Positions 28,449 through 54,438 of a stretch of 64,000 bases of DNA are shown here, piece by piece. The translations under genes were made by a program, and so were the position numbers. Each line of letters starts with the position of its first letter. The stretch's first letter is position 1. The stretch is from Bacillota bacterium (GTDB lineage: Bacteria; Bacillota; Limnochordia; DTU087; JAAYGB01), in assembly GCA_012727955.1 (NCBI GenBank), contig JAAYGB010000023.1, positions 1-64,000 of the forward strand. Reading direction: 5' to 3'. Under the pieces are notes generated by a model. That model ran no database searches, was not told the origin of the DNA, and worked only from the letters and a program-made list of their open reading frames with translations.

Positions 28449-28495
28449 CACAGGGCTCATGAGGGCAATCCTCTTGAGCCCTGTGGCTTTTTTTG
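28449..28495 (+). terminator. Strong intrinsic terminator
   Basis: CACAGGGCTCA (28449-28459) pairs perfectly with TGAGCCCTGTG (28475-28485), with inner GAGG/CCTC pairing, followed by an 8-T tract. Confidence 0.92.
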
Positions 28496-28868: not shown

Positions 28869-28887
28869 TTCCTAAGAGGTGAAGAGC

Positions 28888-30018
28888 ATGGCAGGACAGT
28901 CCGTGTTAAGACCCCAGGCGCCCTATACTGAAGAGATGACGCCTCGGGAGCGGTGGCAGCGAGTGATGCATTTTCAGAGTGTAGATCGCATTCCCCACTA
29001 TGAGTTTGGGTACTGGGATGAGTTGTACAGTGAGTGGCATGAGCAGGGGTTACCTCGCAGCATTGACAATGAGGCCCAGGCCAACGCCTATTTCGGCTTT
29101 GACGAAAGGATCGAGGTGGGGCCTCGTTTGGGCGTGATCCCGACCTTTCCCCGGGAGGTAGTGAGGGAAGAGGGGGACAACCTAATTGTCTATGACAGCG
29201 AAGGGGTCCTGTGTGCTGTGCCAAAGGAGGGCTCTTCGATCCCCCATTACCTAGATTTCCCTATTAAGGACCGTCGCACCTGGGAGGAGTATAAGCATCG
29301 GTTGGATCCCAATGATCCCCAGCGGATTCCTTCCGAGGAGGAACTAGATGAATTGGCTGCCCAGTTGCGCCAAGCCACGGTGCCGGTGGGGATCAATATC
29401 GGGTCTTTGTTTGGCAAGCCTCGAGATCGCATGGGTTTTGAAGGGATCGCCCTGATGATGTATGACGATCCAGAACTGATGGATGAAATCATTGAAACCC
29501 AGTGTAGGATGATCGAAGTAGGTATCGAGCCCTATCTCCAGCGGATTCAGTTTGATTTTGCTGCCGGTTGGGAGGACATTTGTTTTAACAACGGGTGCAT
29601 CATTGGGCCGGCGATGTTCCGAGAATTCTTGCTGCCGAGATATCAGCGGATTGCCAAGCTGGTCCACCGTTATGGCGTTGATGTGATTTATACGGATTGT
29701 GATGGCAACATCAACGGGGTAGTTGACATCTGGCTTGAGGCAGGATACAACTGCATGTTTCCCGTGGAGGTTCGAGCGGGGTCTGATCCCGTGGAACTTC
29801 GTCGCCGTTACGGCAAGGATCTGTTGATGCTCGGTGGCTTCGATAAGATGGCCTTGTTGGCGGGGAAGGAAGCTATCCTCCAGGAGCTGAAACGCCTGGT
29901 GCCGATCATCGAGGAGGGAGGATACATACCCCACGTCGATCACCGGGTGCCCGCGGGAGTCAAATTAGAGGACTATAAATATTACCTCACCGAAAAGCGA
30001 GCTGTCTTGGGTTTCTAG
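28888..30018 (+). CDS. Uroporphyrinogen decarboxylase-family protein (MtaA-like)
   Basis: The protein (376 residues from ATG 28888) has the URO-D/MtaA TIM-barrel pattern: MTPRERWQRVMHFQSVDRIP at the start, VIYTDCDGN, GYNCMFPVEVRAG and GGFDKMALLAGKE. Members outside heme synthesis usually transfer methyl groups to or from corrinoid proteins or thiols, as in MtaA and related demethylases. No other heme-synthesis gene is near, and a MetH-reactivation-like gene sits at 33320, which favours a methyltransferase role. A start at 28879 (GTG) is possible, but AGAGGTG fits ATG 28888. Confidence 0.85.
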   Translation: MAGQSVLRPQAPYTEEMTPRERWQRVMHFQSVDRIPHYEFGYWDELYSEWHEQGLPRSIDNEAQANAYFGFDERIEVGPRLGVIPTFPREVVREEGDNLIVYDSEGVLCAVPKEGSSIPHYLDFPIKDRRTWEEYKHRLDPNDPQRIPSEEELDELAAQLRQATVPVGINIGSLFGKPRDRMGFEGIALMMYDDPELMDEIIETQCRMIEVGIEPYLQRIQFDFAAGWEDICFNNGCIIGPAMFREFLLPRYQRIAKLVHRYGVDVIYTDCDGNINGVVDIWLEAGYNCMFPVEVRAGSDPVELRRRYGKDLLMLGGFDKMALLAGKEAILQELKRLVPIIEEGGYIPHVDHRVPAGVKLEDYKYYLTEKRAVLGF

Positions 30019-30036
30019 GGGTGAAGCAACATCATC

Positions 30037-31035
30037 ATGGTCGTCAAGGTAGCATATGTTTTTTTCTCCAGGAGCATAGACCCTTGGTACAACTTGGCTG
30101 TGGAGGAATGGTTGTTAAGGCGAGTTGAGCCGGGACAAGTAATTTTGTATTTGTGGCAAAATCATCATACCGTAGTTATTGGCCGGAATCAAAATGCCTG
30201 GAAGGAGTGCCGCTGCCAAGAGCTAGAGGCCTCGGGAGGCAAGTTGGCTCGGCGGCTGTCTGGGGGAGGCGCGGTTTACCACGACTTAGGCAATCTTAAT
30301 TTCACCTTTCTTGCCGGCCGGGATGTCTATGACGTAGAGCGTCAACTCCAGGTGATCCTAGACGCGGTGCGGTCCGTGGGAATCGAGGCGGAGTTTTCCG
30401 GGCGCAACGATCTCGAAGTTTCGGGAAGAAAATTCTCGGGAAATGCCTTTTATCTAGAGCGACAGGCGGCTTTTCACCATGGCACGGTAATGGTAAATTG
30501 TGACTTTACCAAGCTCAGTCGCTTCCTGCAGGTGTCATCGGCGAAGATGGCGGCCAAGGGCGTGGAATCACTGCGGGCTCGGGTGATCAATCTGGCAGAG
30601 CTGAATCCCACTTTGACGGTGGCAGCTGTGCAGCAAAGGATCGTCGAACACTTCGCCGCTGCTTACAGTAATTTCCAGGGAGAGATACCCCTTCTTCCTC
30701 AAGGCGGGGAGTTTGACCGGTTGGTGGCCAAGTACAGCTCTTGGCAGTGGCGCTACGGGCAGACGCCCCAGTTTGCCGTGACCTTTGAGACCCGCTTTCC
30801 TTGGGGCGGGATCGAGTTGGCGCTGAATTTAAGGCAGGGACGGATCTGTGAAGCGAAGATTTTTTCCGACGCGATGGATGCCGACTTGGTGGAGGCCATG
30901 GCTACCAGTTTGCTGGGAGTGCCCTTTACTCAATCGGCTATGGCTCAGGCCGTGGCTGATGTGGCAACGGATTCGAACTCCGCCGCATCTATAGTTTCCG
31001 ATGTCAGTGACTGGATCAGCTGCCTGGTCCTATAG
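30037..31035 (+). CDS. Lipoate--protein ligase
   Basis: The 332-residue enzyme attaches lipoate to E2 or glycine-cleavage H protein. The biotin/lipoate-ligase fold motifs are RRLSGGGAVYHD (lipoate-site), GNLNFTF, GRNDLEVSGRKFSGNAF and HHGTVMVN. The accessory C-terminal domain is present. The ATG has AGGGGTGAAG upstream. It follows the URO-D-like gene by 18 bases and probably shares its transcript; no E2 or GcvH gene is visible in the window. Confidence 0.93.
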   Translation: MVVKVAYVFFSRSIDPWYNLAVEEWLLRRVEPGQVILYLWQNHHTVVIGRNQNAWKECRCQELEASGGKLARRLSGGGAVYHDLGNLNFTFLAGRDVYDVERQLQVILDAVRSVGIEAEFSGRNDLEVSGRKFSGNAFYLERQAAFHHGTVMVNCDFTKLSRFLQVSSAKMAAKGVESLRARVINLAELNPTLTVAAVQQRIVEHFAAAYSNFQGEIPLLPQGGEFDRLVAKYSSWQWRYGQTPQFAVTFETRFPWGGIELALNLRQGRICEAKIFSDAMDADLVEAMATSLLGVPFTQSAMAQAVADVATDSNSAASIVSDVSDWISCLVL

Positions 31036-31073
31036 CGGGCGGTTACCGACAATACTACCGACGGAGTGATAGA

Positions 31074-31946
31074 GTGGATAACACGAAACTGGCGTACTTC
31101 GGTGTAGGAGTCAACGTCGCCTTGTTTGGGATGAAGCTTTGGGCCGGAACGGCATCGGGCAGTATCGCCGCGGTCTCCGATGCCCTTAACTCCCTTCTGG
31201 ACGTATTCTCTTACACTGCTTTAAGTATTGCTGTCTGGCTGCACAATCAGGAGCCCGATGAGGACCATCCCTTTGGTCATCGGCGGGCTGAGCCTCTGGC
31301 GGGGTTTATTATTGCCATTGTAGCTGCCATCCTAGGTGGGACGATTATCAAGGATGCCATCGTCGCCTTTATCGTCGACGAGCCCCTGCATGTGACATCA
31401 AGGATTCTGATGGTACTGATTGCCGCAGTGGTGATTAAAGCCTTTCAGGCAGTGCTTTACTATGCGGCAGCTCGCCGCAGTCGGAGCAAAGCGCTGATGG
31501 CAGGATTCATCGATGCCCGTAACGACATTCTCTCCTCGTTGGTGGTGTTTATTGGTGTGTTTGTCGGTGGACGCTACGATGAGTTAGCGGCCTTGTTCAT
31601 CGGGGCCTGGATTCTTTTTTCCGGGATTCGGATTGGGATGGAAAACGCCGGATACCTCATGGGTAGAGCTGCCGATCCTGAGACCATTGCGATGATTGAA
31701 AAAACCGCCTTGGCTATTGCCGGTGTGAAGGGGATTGATGAAATCCGTGCCCACTTTGTCGGGGATCGCATCCATGCCGACGTGCATATCGAGGTGGATT
31801 CCCGTTTATCGGTGGGGGAGGCCCATGACATCAGCGAGCAGGTGAAATGGGCAGTGGATGCCTTGCCGGAAATTGATAACACCTTCGTTCATGTGGATCT
31901 TTTTGTCGGTGATAACACCGAGAAAGAGAAGGAATTTACTGGCTAA
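31074..31946 (+). CDS. Cation diffusion facilitator (metal efflux) transporter
   Basis: The six-helix membrane domain includes the metal-site motif DALNSLLDVFSY and the family signature HPFGHRRAEPL. A cytoplasmic ferredoxin-like C-terminal domain follows, with HADVHIEVD. CDF proteins exchange Zn2+, Fe2+, Mn2+ or Co2+ for protons. The first-site residues here are D-N...DV and the H/D pair of the family signature; I cannot tell the metal. GTG start with GGAGTGAT. It lies 38 bases after the lipoate ligase gene. Confidence 0.92.
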   Translation: MDNTKLAYFGVGVNVALFGMKLWAGTASGSIAAVSDALNSLLDVFSYTALSIAVWLHNQEPDEDHPFGHRRAEPLAGFIIAIVAAILGGTIIKDAIVAFIVDEPLHVTSRILMVLIAAVVIKAFQAVLYYAAARRSRSKALMAGFIDARNDILSSLVVFIGVFVGGRYDELAALFIGAWILFSGIRIGMENAGYLMGRAADPETIAMIEKTALAIAGVKGIDEIRAHFVGDRIHADVHIEVDSRLSVGEAHDISEQVKWAVDALPEIDNTFVHVDLFVGDNTEKEKEFTG

Positions 31947-31968
31947 TTCCCTAATGTTGTCGTGATGG

Positions 31969-31991
31969 GTTTAGTACTTGGATCACTAAAC
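31969..31991 (+). promoter_or_regulatory. Operator-like inverted repeat upstream of sulfatase
   Basis: GTTTAGT (31969-31975) and ACTAAAC (31985-31991) are perfect 7-bp arms with a 9-base spacer, 6 bases ahead of the sulfatase ribosome site. It looks like a repressor site or a short RNA hairpin. No regulator gene is adjacent. Confidence 0.45.
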
Positions 31992-32005
31992 ATAGGAGGA
32001 AGACG

Positions 32006-33310
32006 ATGCGCAACATTCTCTACGTTCATACCCATGACACCGGTCGATACATCCAGCCCTATGGTTACGGGGTACCGACCCCGAATCTGATGACGCTGGC
32101 AGAGACCGGTACCCTGTTTCGCCAAGCCTACAACGCAGCTCCGACCTGTTCGCCCAGTCGCGCCGCTTTGCTCACAGGAATGGCTCCCCATTCCTGCGGG
32201 ATGATCGGCCTTGCCCACCGGGGTTTTAGTCTCAATGACTACAGCAAGCACCTAGCTAACTTCCTGGGTGATAAGGGATTTGAAACAGTCCTGTGCGGGG
32301 TGCAACATGAAGCTGCCAATGCCGAGGACATCGGTTACGATAGGATTCTGCCTACCTCAGGAAAGAACGCCATCGAAGTAGACCTGTCGGGAGCAGCTGC
32401 CGTGGCGGAGTACCTGAAATCGCCCCATGAGAAGCCCTTTTTCCTGTCCTTCGGGATGCAGAATACCCACAGGCCCTTTCCCGAGATAGATCCCGACGTC
32501 AATCCCGATTATGTTCAACCCCCGCTGCCCTTGCCCGACACCAAAGAAGTTCGGGAAGACATGGCGGCCTTCATCACCTCTGCTAAGGTGGTCGATCGCT
32601 GTGTTGGTATCGTAATGGAGGCCCTGGAGCAGTCGGGTCTGAAGGATGAAACCTTGGTGATTTTCACCACGGATCACGGAATTGCCTTTCCGAAGATGAA
32701 GTGCAATCTCTATGACACCGGAACGGGAGTGGCTTTGATCTTCAACTACCCCAACAATCCTGCTAAGGGCAAAGCCATCGACAGTCTCGTCTCTCACATC
32801 GACGTCTTCCCAACGATTTGCGACATGTTTAACCATGAAAAACCCGAGTGGCTGCAGGGTAATTCTATGGTTCCTCTGTTTACCGGGGAGAAGGAGGAAA
32901 TTCGGAAGGAGCTGTTCACCGAGGTCACATACCATGCAGCCTACGAGCCAATGCGAGCTATTAGAACTAAGCGGTACAAACTGATCAAGCTCTTTGATGA
33001 TCACGATCGCTATGTTCCGGCCAACATTGACGATTCCCTAAGTAAGTCTTTGCTGGTGGACAACGGGCTGATGGAGCTGGCTCGGGACAAGGAGATGCTC
33101 TTTGACCTGTATCACGATCCGCTGGAGCGGGTGAATCTCGTGGACGATCCTCGCTACGAGGCTGTGTACAAGGACCTATCACAGCGGTTGAGGGATTGGA
33201 TGGAGCAGACAGAGGATCCTCTATTGCAGGGTCATCGGGTACCTAAGCCCGAGGGAGCGATGGTGAACACTCGCACCACCCTCAGCCCCAATTCTGGAGA
33301 ATGGGAGTAG
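32006..33310 (+). CDS. Cysteine-type sulfatase
   Basis: The formylglycine motif is C48-S-P-S-R followed by AALLTG, the standard type I sulfatase pattern. A metal-binding acidic region (HTHDTGR) is at the N-terminus and VIFTTDHG marks the C-terminal metal site. It should hydrolyse sulfate esters, likely on sugars, after the cysteine is oxidised by a maturase not seen in the window. There is no signal peptide, so it acts inside the cell. An AGGAGGA site lies upstream. The MetH-activation-like gene follows by 9 bases. Confidence 0.9.
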   Translation: MRNILYVHTHDTGRYIQPYGYGVPTPNLMTLAETGTLFRQAYNAAPTCSPSRAALLTGMAPHSCGMIGLAHRGFSLNDYSKHLANFLGDKGFETVLCGVQHEAANAEDIGYDRILPTSGKNAIEVDLSGAAAVAEYLKSPHEKPFFLSFGMQNTHRPFPEIDPDVNPDYVQPPLPLPDTKEVREDMAAFITSAKVVDRCVGIVMEALEQSGLKDETLVIFTTDHGIAFPKMKCNLYDTGTGVALIFNYPNNPAKGKAIDSLVSHIDVFPTICDMFNHEKPEWLQGNSMVPLFTGEKEEIRKELFTEVTYHAAYEPMRAIRTKRYKLIKLFDDHDRYVPANIDDSLSKSLLVDNGLMELARDKEMLFDLYHDPLERVNLVDDPRYEAVYKDLSQRLRDWMEQTEDPLLQGHRVPKPEGAMVNTRTTLSPNSGEWE

Positions 33311-33319
33311 GGATAGACT

Positions 33320-34000
33320 GTGAAACCAAAGGTGTTAGATAACATTGTCCTGGAGCTTGGGCTGGACCAAGTTCTCAGCCGGCTTCACATTGACCCCGAT
33401 AGTGAGGATGCTGTCTGGGTAGAGCAGATGGTAAAGGAAGCTCGCCAGATAGCTCGGCCGAAAGTGATCTATGCACCCTTTGACATCGATGAGAAGGGTG
33501 ACGACTACGTGGTGATCGGCGGGATCCGCTTTGAGAGTCGGATTCTGCGAGTTAACCTGGATAGTGCCCATCGCGTCTTTGCGTACGTGGCTTCCTGTGG
33601 TCGGGAGCTGCAGGAGTGGATGGAATTCTTCGATGATATGTTGATGCAATACGCCGCGGACGAGATCTGTCGGCTGGGTTTAAATGCTGCTGTAGAGGCC
33701 TTTCTTAAGGATATCAATAAGGTGCTGCCGGGAAAGAGTGCCTCGATGAATCCAGGTTCCTTGCCCGACTGGCCCTTGCCCGAGCAGCAAAAGCTTTTTG
33801 CTTTGCTGGGAGGTTCACCTTTGGTTATCGGAGTGGAGCTCAGTGACTCTTCATTGATGCGTCCCATTAAATCCATATCTGGATTTCGGTTTGCAACGGA
33901 GCACAACTTTGAGAATTGTCAGCTTTGCCCCCGGGAGAACTGTCCCGGAAGACGGGCACCCTACGATGAAGGGCTATACCAGGCTCGCTACGCAGGTTAG
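33320..34000 (+). CDS. Vitamin-B12-dependent methionine-synthase activation-domain-like protein
   Basis: The 226-residue protein has the signature of MetH-activation-domain-like proteins: MNPGSLPDWPLPEQQ, GVELSDSSLMRPIKSISGF, and a C-terminal three-cysteine tail (C200, C203, C208; ENCQLCPRENCPG). Such stand-alone proteins help reductively reactivate corrinoid proteins. No methionine synthase gene is next to it, but an MtaA/URO-D-like protein is encoded in the same cluster. The tail resembles a metal or Fe-S binding site. GTG start with AGGGATAG; a terminator follows. Confidence 0.88.
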   Translation: MKPKVLDNIVLELGLDQVLSRLHIDPDSEDAVWVEQMVKEARQIARPKVIYAPFDIDEKGDDYVVIGGIRFESRILRVNLDSAHRVFAYVASCGRELQEWMEFFDDMLMQYAADEICRLGLNAAVEAFLKDINKVLPGKSASMNPGSLPDWPLPEQQKLFALLGGSPLVIGVELSDSSLMRPIKSISGFRFATEHNFENCQLCPRENCPGRRAPYDEGLYQARYAG

Positions 34001-34016
34001 GGTTGACGACAAACAC

Positions 34017-34063
34017 AAAGCCATCTCTGGGTCCCAACGCCTCGGGCCCGAGATGGCTTTTTT
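34017..34063. terminator. Bidirectional intrinsic terminator
   Basis: AAAGCCATCTC (34017-34027) pairs with GAGATGGCTTT (34050-34060) and CCC/GGG inside, followed by T's. It lies between convergent genes. Confidence 0.85.
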
Positions 34064-52581: not shown

Positions 52582-52629
52582 TGAGATGTCAGCTTTTCTT
52601 GCCAAGATATAATCAAAACATACATATGT

Positions 52630-52750
52630 ACGTTATCTCCGAATTCCGTTAGGAAATGGGGGACCCTATCAAAGTGGGGTGAATCCTGGCTTGCGGTTTG
52701 CCAGGTAGGGCAACTTGGGAGCCCGAACCCGTCAGCTAACCCCGTAGGAG
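52630..52750 (+). promoter_or_regulatory. Cyclic-di-AMP riboswitch (ydaO-yuaA class)
   Basis: The aptamer has the hallmark ydaO/yuaA conserved segments in order: CCGAATTCCGTTAGG, GGGGGACCC, GGGGTGAATC, GGTAGGGCAAC, GAGCCCGAACCCGTCAGC and TAACCCCGTAGG. I recognise these from the known class (RF00379). These RNAs bind c-di-AMP and usually turn off downstream expression when it is high. A terminator follows at 52757, and the SulP gene lies behind it. Confidence 0.93.
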
Positions 52751-52756
52751 TGATCC

Positions 52757-52806
52757 AAGCGTAGTGTATTAGTCCCGTAGAGGGTCTTTGCATGCGCTTT
52801 TTTTTG
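52757..52806 (+). terminator. Intrinsic terminator acting as riboswitch expression platform
   Basis: AAGCG (52757-52761) pairs with CGCTT (52795-52799) as the base of a long imperfect hairpin with a CCC/GGG inner stem, followed by a run of eight or more T's. It is positioned to switch transcription of SulP and the Mrp genes. Confidence 0.8.
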
Positions 52807-52878: not shown

Positions 52879-54438
52879 GTGCGTTCTTGGTGGGGACGTT
52901 ATCGCGGTGATGTGGCGGGTGGGCTTACCGCGGCGATTGTAGCTTTGCCCTTGGCATTGGCCTTTGGAATTGCTAGCGGCGCGGGAGCTATAGCTGGCTT
53001 GTATGCATCCATTTTTGGTGGCTTGGTGGCTTCGGTCTTTGGCGGCTGCGGGGTTCAGATCTCTGGGCCTACTGGAGCGATGACCGCAATCCTGGTCAGT
53101 CTGGTTGCCAAACATGGGTTGGGCGGTATGCTTTTGGCTGGTATCTTGGCAGGGCTGATGCAAATTGGTCTTGGCCTTTTGCGTTTAGGTAAGTTTGTGA
53201 AATATCTTCCTCAGCCGGTGATTGCCGGTTTCACCAATGGTATATCAATCTTGTTTTTCATGACAGCCATCGGTGATGCCGTTCAAGAACCTATCATCAC
53301 TTTGTTTACCGCGCTAGTGATCGTTCTTGCTGCACAACTCTTCAAGAGAGTCCCCGATTCTCTCTTTGGATTAGTCGCCGGTCTTGCCCTCAATCAATTT
53401 ATTGGTTCGTCACACGTAGTAGGCGAAGTTGCCTTTACAATACCGAAATTTACCTTTGGATTAATGCCGCTAGAGCACATTGGTTCTTTGATCATGCCTG
53501 CAGTTAGTATCTGCTTGCTGGGTAGCATATCGGCGTTATTGTCGGCACAGGTCACCGACAGCATGACCGAAAGCCAGCACGATAGTAACCGTGAGCTGGT
53601 AGGGCAGGGCCTGGGGAACCTTGTCTCCTGTGCAATTGGTGGTGTTCCCATTACTGGGGCCGTGGCTCGCTCCGGCATCAACGTTTACGCCGGGGGTCGT
53701 ACCCGAGTTTCCGGTATTCTTCATTCCTTGTTTCTCGGGTTTATGGTCTTGGTCTTACAGCCCGTGGTAAGACGGATTCCGATGGCATCCTTGGCAGCGA
53801 TTTTGATGGTATCGTCGGTGCGTACCGCTGATTGGAAGAGCTTAAGATTGATACCGCGAGCGCGGTGGTCCTACGGTGCCATTCTCATCTTCACCACCAT
53901 ACTCACCGTGGTTCAGGATTTAGCAATAGCAGTAGTCGCGGGAGTAATCTTGGCCGTGATTGGGGTAGTAGTGGAGTTGGCTGCTTTGCCCCAGGGAAGG
54001 GAAGTATCCCATAAAGAAGAGCGGGAGCCTGCCTTATCTTACCAGGTACATAACGCCGTTCAGGTGTTGGCTTTTCATGGGCCGTTGTTCTTTGTAGGAG
54101 TGGAACAGGCAAGAAACCAGATCAAGCAGCTGGCCAACAAACCTATCTTGGTTCTAGATTTATCCGATGTTTCGATCCTCGATGAGACCGCTGCCTTGGC
54201 GCTACTGGACTTGGCAAGACGTCTGCAAGGACAGGGCAAGGCGCTCTATGTAGCGGGATTGAGTAAGAAGGCATTGCGCATGGTAACCCGGATGGGGTTG
54301 GTTAAGGAACTGGGACGGCAGCGGCTATGCAGAGATATTAATTGTGCCTTGCGACGGGCAGTTCGTGAGGCTATACAGCTGGAATCGGAAGAGTATACAT
54401 CTCCCAGTTGGCCCCCTGTGGCAGAGTTGAGTAGCTAG
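52879..54438 (+). CDS. SulP-family anion transporter with STAS domain
   Basis: The 519-residue protein has a membrane domain of about 12-14 segments with the SulP signatures GGLTAAIVALPLALAFGIAS, IFGG, ISGPTGAMTAI and VIAGFTNGISI. A cytoplasmic STAS domain (ILVLDLSDVSILDETAALAL) ends it. SulP members carry sulfate, chloride or bicarbonate; cyanobacterial BicA is a Na+-dependent bicarbonate importer. Downstream Na+/H+ antiporter genes make Na+-coupled import likely here, but the anion is not readable. GTG start behind GGGGGG. Controlled by the upstream riboswitch. Confidence 0.93.
   Translation: MRSWWGRYRGDVAGGLTAAIVALPLALAFGIASGAGAIAGLYASIFGGLVASVFGGCGVQISGPTGAMTAILVSLVAKHGLGGMLLAGILAGLMQIGLGLLRLGKFVKYLPQPVIAGFTNGISILFFMTAIGDAVQEPIITLFTALVIVLAAQLFKRVPDSLFGLVAGLALNQFIGSSHVVGEVAFTIPKFTFGLMPLEHIGSLIMPAVSICLLGSISALLSAQVTDSMTESQHDSNRELVGQGLGNLVSCAIGGVPITGAVARSGINVYAGGRTRVSGILHSLFLGFMVLVLQPVVRRIPMASLAAILMVSSVRTADWKSLRLIPRARWSYGAILIFTTILTVVQDLAIAVVAGVILAVIGVVVELAALPQGREVSHKEEREPALSYQVHNAVQVLAFHGPLFFVGVEQARNQIKQLANKPILVLDLSDVSILDETAALALLDLARRLQGQGKALYVAGLSKKALRMVTRMGLVKELGRQRLCRDINCALRRAVREAIQLESEEYTSPSWPPVAELSS

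Follow-up and report, generated by a model that had tools for sequence, protein, structure and literature searches.

A MetH reactivation-fold protein without the AdoMet motif, linked to RACo and a putative helper in corrinoid-protein reactivation, in a Limnochordia genome

Why would a bacterium with no recognisable methionine synthase (MetH) encode a protein resembling the MetH reactivation domain, and do the genes around it share its function? The question is raised by a run of five genes in the 64,000-nucleotide stretch analysed here (the window; contig 23, bases 1-64000, of genome G000, a 2.27 Mb assembly that is 97% complete and comprises 66 contigs), the last of which (33320..34000, + strand) encodes a protein of 226 residues. 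Corrinoid methyltransferases occasionally fall into an inactive Co(II) state and need rescue, which is driven by S-adenosylmethionine (AdoMet) in MetH and by ATP via RACo/RamA in anaerobes, RACo having no need of AdoMet. Within MetH the reactivation domain docks onto the B12 domain, and its RxxxGY motif binds AdoMet. Judged from its sequence, the last-gene protein belongs to a RACo-linked branch of this domain that is devoid of the AdoMet motif. We favour, with moderate confidence, a reading in which it acts as an AdoMet-independent helper of RACo in corrinoid-protein reactivation, with the neighbouring lipoate ligase, cation diffusion facilitator (CDF) exporter and sulfatase incidental and the first gene of the run, a URO-D superfamily member, a possible methyltransferase.

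The modelled fold of the last-gene protein is clearly that of the MetH reactivation domain. Its match to PF02965 is below the Pfam cut-off (20.5 bits against 25) and covers only the 42 residues 154-195, and a relative at locus L038 exceeds the same cut-off with 27.3 bits. The predicted structure, derived from a 68-row alignment, has a pLDDT of 92.6, and all 19 of its PDB matches at E<=0.001 contain the MetH reactivation domain. The stand-alone TM0269 domain ranks first (1j6r; E 6.4e-10, Z 16.5, 184 residues, 2.9 A), and the alignment to it spans residues 1-193. The RxxxGY motif, present as RxxxGYP in 12/12 MetH-fused domains read, is missing from all 68 aligned rows and reads SMNPGS in the window; MNPGSL stands in its place at residues 143-148 (33746..33763, + strand), with M, P, G, S and L conserved in 68/68 rows and N in 64/68. 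Beyond the fold lies a C200-x2-C203-x4-C208 tail (33917..33943, + strand), a candidate iron-sulphur (Fe-S) or zinc site, which is exactly as the first-pass annotation had described it; C200, C203, C208 and R211 are invariant in 68/68 rows.

The association with RACo was assessed in a phylum sample of 398 genomes, the window family being defined by profile matches at E<=1e-20 and RACo by PF14574. Within this sample the window family occurs in 27 genomes and RACo in 217, and every one of the 27 family genomes, which span 17 taxonomic families, contains RACo, against 190/371 genomes without the family (Fisher p 3.5e-8). The match is weak in seven of these genomes (75-84 bits), and the remaining 20 are likewise all RACo-positive (p 3.5e-6). 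G000 is itself RACo-positive (PF14574, E 4.8e-78).

A further 79 stand-alone activation-like proteins, from 78 loci in the same sample, divide into two classes. Those with an intact motif (n=55) have MetH in the locus in 52 cases and RACo in the genome in nine, whereas the 24 motif-broken proteins, from 22 genomes, have MetH in the locus in none and RACo in the genome in 23 (p 3e-17 for MetH, p 1e-11 for RACo). RACo lies in the same locus for 10/24 of the motif-broken proteins, four of them fusions. In a tree of these 79 proteins and 18 window-family rows, all 42 motif-broken rows (24 + 18) fall on one side of a branch supported at 99/92, with the bootstrap not fully settled and some branches long; 52 of the motif-intact rows group together, and RACo is present in the genomes of only six of them. 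The Cys tail was also considered as a peculiarity of the last gene, a suggestion that was rejected, as 45/55 motif-intact stand-alone relatives have it and one of the 10 tail-less proteins is cut short. The last-gene protein thus resembles the stand-alone MetH reactivation domains typified by TM0269 (1j6r; PF02965) in its small size, in its fold over residues 1-193 and in a tail common in the motif-intact class, and differs in lacking RxxxGY, in a genome in which no MetH domain was found and in its separate RACo-linked clade. Among the matches listed from the open-licence PMC literature, no paper names a RACo-linked MetH-activation-like protein.

In four genomes from two families (L162, L163, L164 and L165), the domain and its Cys tail are fused to the N-terminus of RACo in frames of 810-859 codons, with the tail immediately preceding the RACo 2Fe-2S domain. 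A single L164 chain carries, by Pfam, the activation domain (20.4 bits, below cut-off) followed by the 2Fe-2S, linker, middle and ASKHA domains, and in L162 the NCBIfam model AcsV covers residues 241-856 (460.7 bits, cut-off 800), with a weak MetH match over residues 40-199.

Relatives of the last gene were found in 113 loci, of which 80 were kept for locus counts; the relatives, in at least 80 loci, are distributed over Bacillota, Chloroflexi, Planctomycetota, Atribacteria, Deltaproteobacteria and other groups. RACo was recognised in nine of these 80 loci, a corrinoid protein in 10, MttB-like genes in nine and an MtaA-like URO-D gene in five. Gene orders include pterin methyltransferase, MttB, RACo, a transporter-like gene, a PocR-like regulator, an MtgC-type protein and the last-gene relative (L043); RACo, last-gene relative, MtaA and MtgC (L094); MtaA, MtgC, RACo, last-gene relative and homocysteine methyltransferase (L117); and RACo, PocR, MtgC and last-gene relative (L070). 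In L218, from the same class as the window, MtaA is followed by a motif-broken domain and a RACo with overlapping ends. The invariable presence of RACo in the 27 family genomes and these gene sets with RACo, a corrinoid protein and MtaA or MttB bear out the corrinoid reactivation suggested for the last gene by the first-pass annotation. Two deltaproteobacterial loci, L116 and L117, have a homocysteine S-methyltransferase gene after the RACo and MetH-like genes (PF02574, 229.9 bits in L117); in L116 the label comes from reading, and a hydantoinase-like gene lies between.

The same gene set, clustered in relatives, is present in G000 in three places. The only RACo in the genome (258.8 bits) lies on contig 4, and after it comes a corrinoid protein of MtgC type (NF047996, 238.5 bits, cut-off 370) whose two B12-binding Pfam domains are both above their own cut-offs, the pair being located behind FolD and two flavoprotein genes. 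Contig 36 encodes an MtaA-type URO-D protein with a His-Cys-Cys zinc site beside a PocR-AraC regulator; it shares 57-63% identity with its MtaA-type counterparts in L051, L070, L094, L218 and L220 and, at 117.2 bits, falls short of the MtaA/CmuA cut-off of 235.4. RACo, the MtgC-type protein and the contig 36 protein are candidate partners of the last-gene protein. The first-pass annotation had seen no corrinoid protein, which holds for the cluster and not for the genome; the genome search for such proteins that it proposed leads to the MtgC-type gene beside RACo, and its expectation of a partner elsewhere agrees with the candidates on contigs 4 and 36. A second MtaA-type URO-D protein, with Phe-Cys-Cys and a thioredoxin-like end, is encoded on contig 8 (167.7 of 235.4 bits for MtaA/CmuA). 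Contig 61 yields a third match for B12 binding, which scores below its cut-off at 25.1 bits; it falls in a gene that reads as iron-alcohol-dehydrogenase-like and was taken as false. No match to PF02574, PF00809 or PF01717 was found at E<=0.01 in G000, that is, no MetH, MetE, core-MetE or FolP-type domain in a genome that is 97% complete, in agreement with the first-pass annotation, which had described the cluster as having no methionine synthase; FolD and a formate-tetrahydrofolate ligase are present.

The proposed mechanism starts from a corrinoid protein left inactive by oxidation of its cobalt to Co(II); the last-gene protein would dock onto it, as the domain does in MetH, and would keep it in a reduction-ready conformation. 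RACo, through its 2Fe-2S domain and ATP-driven ASKHA domain, would then drive an electron in, possibly relayed through a metal cluster on the C200/C203/C208 tail, and AdoMet would not be needed because RACo would supply the electron and ATP the drive. The partners in G000 would be the contig 4 RACo and MtgC-type protein and the putative MtaA-type methyltransferase of contig 36. More tentatively, and with the balance tilting slightly against it, RACo reactivation may commonly use a third, unnamed component, a MetH-fold adaptor working without AdoMet and having a Cys-bound cluster of its own as the electron path; the two known routes of B12 rescue would then be joined evolutionarily through one docking domain. 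A dedicated RACo partner with the MetH fold would reveal how a rescue domain driven by AdoMet became ATP-driven, would provide a gene marker for corrinoid rescue systems in genomes without recognisable methionine synthase and would allow a direct test of how RACo locates its corrinoid protein.

Several observations weigh against the RACo-helper reading and lend weight to two others. The last gene, on contig 23, has no physical linkage to RACo or the corrinoid protein, which are both on contig 4, and 71/80 related loci have no recognised RACo in the available DNA, some contigs being short. The fusions are RACo-positive by construction, and without them 19/20 motif-broken proteins are in RACo genomes; five genomes are counted in both the 27/27 and the 24-protein tests, and kinship was allowed for in the co-occurrence statistics by counting families only. 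One fusion, L163, has a frame that begins inside the domain, the first part of which is in another frame. The Cys tail does not appear to be a RACo-specific relay, because it is also found in the MetH-linked class, and AdoMet independence is deduced from motif loss, while other residues might bind AdoMet. The last of these points leads to a rather unlikely alternative, namely that the protein remains MetH-like and carries out reductive methylation of the corrinoid protein with AdoMet held by altered residues, the Cys tail serving as electron inlet and RACo merely co-occurring. The unchanged fold would fit, as would a retained stretch matching MetH (S177, L179, M180, P182, K184, S187 and G188), the seven broken-class rows that keep the Arg and are without only the Tyr (including RLSPGH in fusions L162 and L163) and three motif-intact proteins, all from RACo genomes and one of them (L144) beside RACo, that adjoin the RACo-side clade in the tree. 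However, RxxxGY is lost throughout the 68 rows and kept throughout the MetH-fused domains, and the fusions join the domain to an activase regarded as AdoMet-independent. The other alternative, that in the window's lineage the protein serves a B12-type radical-SAM enzyme rather than a methyltransferase corrinoid protein, arises from the order relatives. Relatives of the last gene occur in 12/12 genomes of the order, and in the 11 others (L029-L039, all of one family) a radical-SAM gene of about 500 codons directly follows the MetH-like gene and often overlaps it, with no corrinoid gene there. Because of this 11/11 arrangement, a side role with the radical-SAM gene in these order relatives is possible. 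The alternative itself is very unlikely: the radical-SAM gene is not at the window locus and was recognised in just 11/80 loci, all of the order-type arrangement, and the one such protein scanned, from L038, matches Radical_SAM only (33.2 bits) with no B12-binding Pfam match, its best specific family being MJ_0865 (methyl-coenzyme M reductase glutamine C-methyltransferase) at a weak 19.7 of 360 bits.

A different pair of alternatives concerns the first gene of the run (28879..30018, + strand), which encodes a 379-residue URO-D superfamily protein of a divergent subfamily, and which the first-pass annotation had called MtaA/URO-D-like. The second half of that label stands (49.2 bits against a Pfam cut-off of 23.9) and the first does not: the protein is far below the MtaA/CmuA cut-off of TIGR01463 (24.8 of 235.4 bits) and does not have the His-Cys-Cys site; an MtaA-type identity is not supported. 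At the positions of the His, Cys and Cys ligands of MtaA-type enzymes it carries an invariant T-D-C-D-G and H355: T272-D273-C274-D275 (29692..29703, + strand; invariant in 8/8 aligned rows) lies in the region of the His-x-Cys, with a residue correspondence that depends on the alignment, and H355 (29941..29943, + strand) aligns with the third, Cys, ligand. The ligand positions read T-C-H by MAFFT, T272 and C274 being placed against His and Cys, or D-D-H (D273, D275 and H355) under a manual alignment of the DG, a reading in keeping with the D-x-D-G retained in relatives L126 and L129; under neither alignment is there a His at the first place. PMC10418091 gives His-Cys-Cys zinc ligands as the rule for S-methyltransferases and associates carboxylate ligands with O-methyl substrates. 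A methyltransferase function for the window protein is, on its sequence, possible but unproven. It could form a corrinoid demethylation pair with the last gene, acting on O- or N-methyl groups through a carboxylate-containing site, and a corrinoid role is still possible because its family (E<=1e-60) is found only in RACo genomes (11/11, among the 398, from eight families; p 0.001, kinship uncorrected). This family also lies near last-gene relatives in three of the 80 loci, namely L052, L070 (beside RACo-PocR-MtgC) and L095. Such a pair is nevertheless improbable: in the co-occurrence analysis proposed by the first-pass annotation, the two families share only 3/11 genomes (p 0.03) and one contig only in the window, and the His ligand is gone. 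The structural model is weak (pLDDT 63.8), and so are its fold matches, owing to this low confidence; all 17 at E<=0.001 are URO-D/HemE structures at a TM of about 0.45, none of the best 50 being named as MtaA or MtbA, and this resemblance to HemE structures counts against an MtaA-like label. The remaining explanation, that the window URO-D protein works in sugar or aromatic metabolism without a corrinoid and that the five genes stand together by chance, is a serious contender that falls a little short of probable. It is favoured by the several G000 paralogues beside Gfo/Idh/MocA-type dehydrogenases or glycosidase-like genes (labels from reading) and by the absence of the lipoate ligase and CDF exporter from loci of last-gene relatives, and is opposed by the presence of RACo in all 11 genomes with the URO-D family.

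On curated cut-offs, a HemE identity was rejected. The window protein has no match to the HemE model TIGR01464 at E<=0.001, and all 12 G000 URO-D genes scored stay below the HemE cut-off of 303 bits (highest score 69.3), a contig-end fragment and the rest of the heme pathway falling outside this test; with a corrinoid protein co-occurring in the genome, the opposing case named in the first-pass annotation, a HemE-type URO-D protein and no corrinoid protein, does not describe G000. Twelve URO-D superfamily genes (contigs 6, 8, 20, 23, 36, 37, 41 and 53; loci L021-L027 and L129) is the count for this 2.3 Mb genome, the contig 20 gene having been missed by the Pfam search and recovered in a later search with the window URO-D family; the fragment, of 64 codons, is at the end of contig 44. 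Relatives of the window URO-D protein at E<=1e-20 are present in 8/12 genomes of the order, with six genomes, including its own, at >=38% identity.

Returning to the last-gene protein as a RACo helper, the closest described systems are each similar in part. RACo/RamA activases (PF14574; DUF4445 in PMC5764234) likely take part in the same reaction and are fused or adjacent to the domain in some relatives, whereas the last-gene protein shows no ATPase or 2Fe-2S domain and would be an added helper, unnamed in the available part of PMC5764234. DUF1638, in the same part of that source, is likewise an additional protein, next to a RamA-like activase, with a link to corrinoid reactivation, and is named there without a proposed role; its likeness to the last gene is by description only. 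On the same basis, and from partial sources, DUF1638 and MecG/MecH (PMC9768040) were considered as possibly the same protein as the last gene. The three-part methionine synthase of Phaeobacter (PMC5764234) also pairs a free-standing corrinoid protein with an activase of RamA type; neither its homocysteine part nor its pterin part was found in G000. Type 1 mlp clusters, as presented in the available part of PMC10418091, share with G000 the combination of RACE, a corrinoid protein and an MtaA-like URO-D protein, and likewise have no folate methyltransferase, there being no PF00809 match anywhere in G000. These genes are dispersed in G000, which has one His-Cys-Cys URO-D protein among 11 aligned, and the co-location of Mlp2, Mlp3, corrinoid protein and RACE was not seen, the MtaA-type URO-D proteins being on contigs 36 and 8 and RACo and MtgC on contig 4. 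The terms 'activation domain' and 'reactivation' were not found in the main text of PMC10418091.

All five open reading frames (ORFs) of the run were confirmed as first annotated, contiguous on one strand with intergenic gaps of 18, 38, 59 and 9 bp, except that the URO-D gene begins at a GTG at 28879, the start noted earlier at 28888 being an in-frame ATG. The three genes between the URO-D gene and the last gene, all on the + strand, encode a lipoate-protein ligase LplA (30037..31035; TIGR00545, 349 bits, above cut-off), the CDF exporter (31074..31946; TIGR01297, 184 bits) and a sulfatase (32006..33310; PF00884, 121.5 bits). Near relatives of the last gene, the lipoate ligase and the CDF exporter are found in 0/80 loci each and a sulfatase-like gene in 3/80, gene calling having missed the MetH-like gene itself in seven of these loci and some contigs being short. 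The five genes as one corrinoid operon, a reading of the corrinoid-methyl-transfer-like cluster of the first-pass annotation, were rejected on these counts. The lipoate ligase and CDF exporter are probably incidental because they are near none of the 80 relatives, and the sulfatase and the five-gene unit as such are probably incidental too. A terminator-like hairpin lies directly 3' of the last gene (34044..34059, + strand) and another at 28476, with the seven such sites in the window at chance level (5.5 expected from shuffled sequence). Further downstream, a cyclic di-AMP (c-di-AMP) riboswitch (RF00379, 89.7 bits) occupies window positions 52627-52766, just 5' of a transporter-like ORF (52879-54438), beyond which antiporter-like ORFs continue to about 61880, these labels being from reading only.

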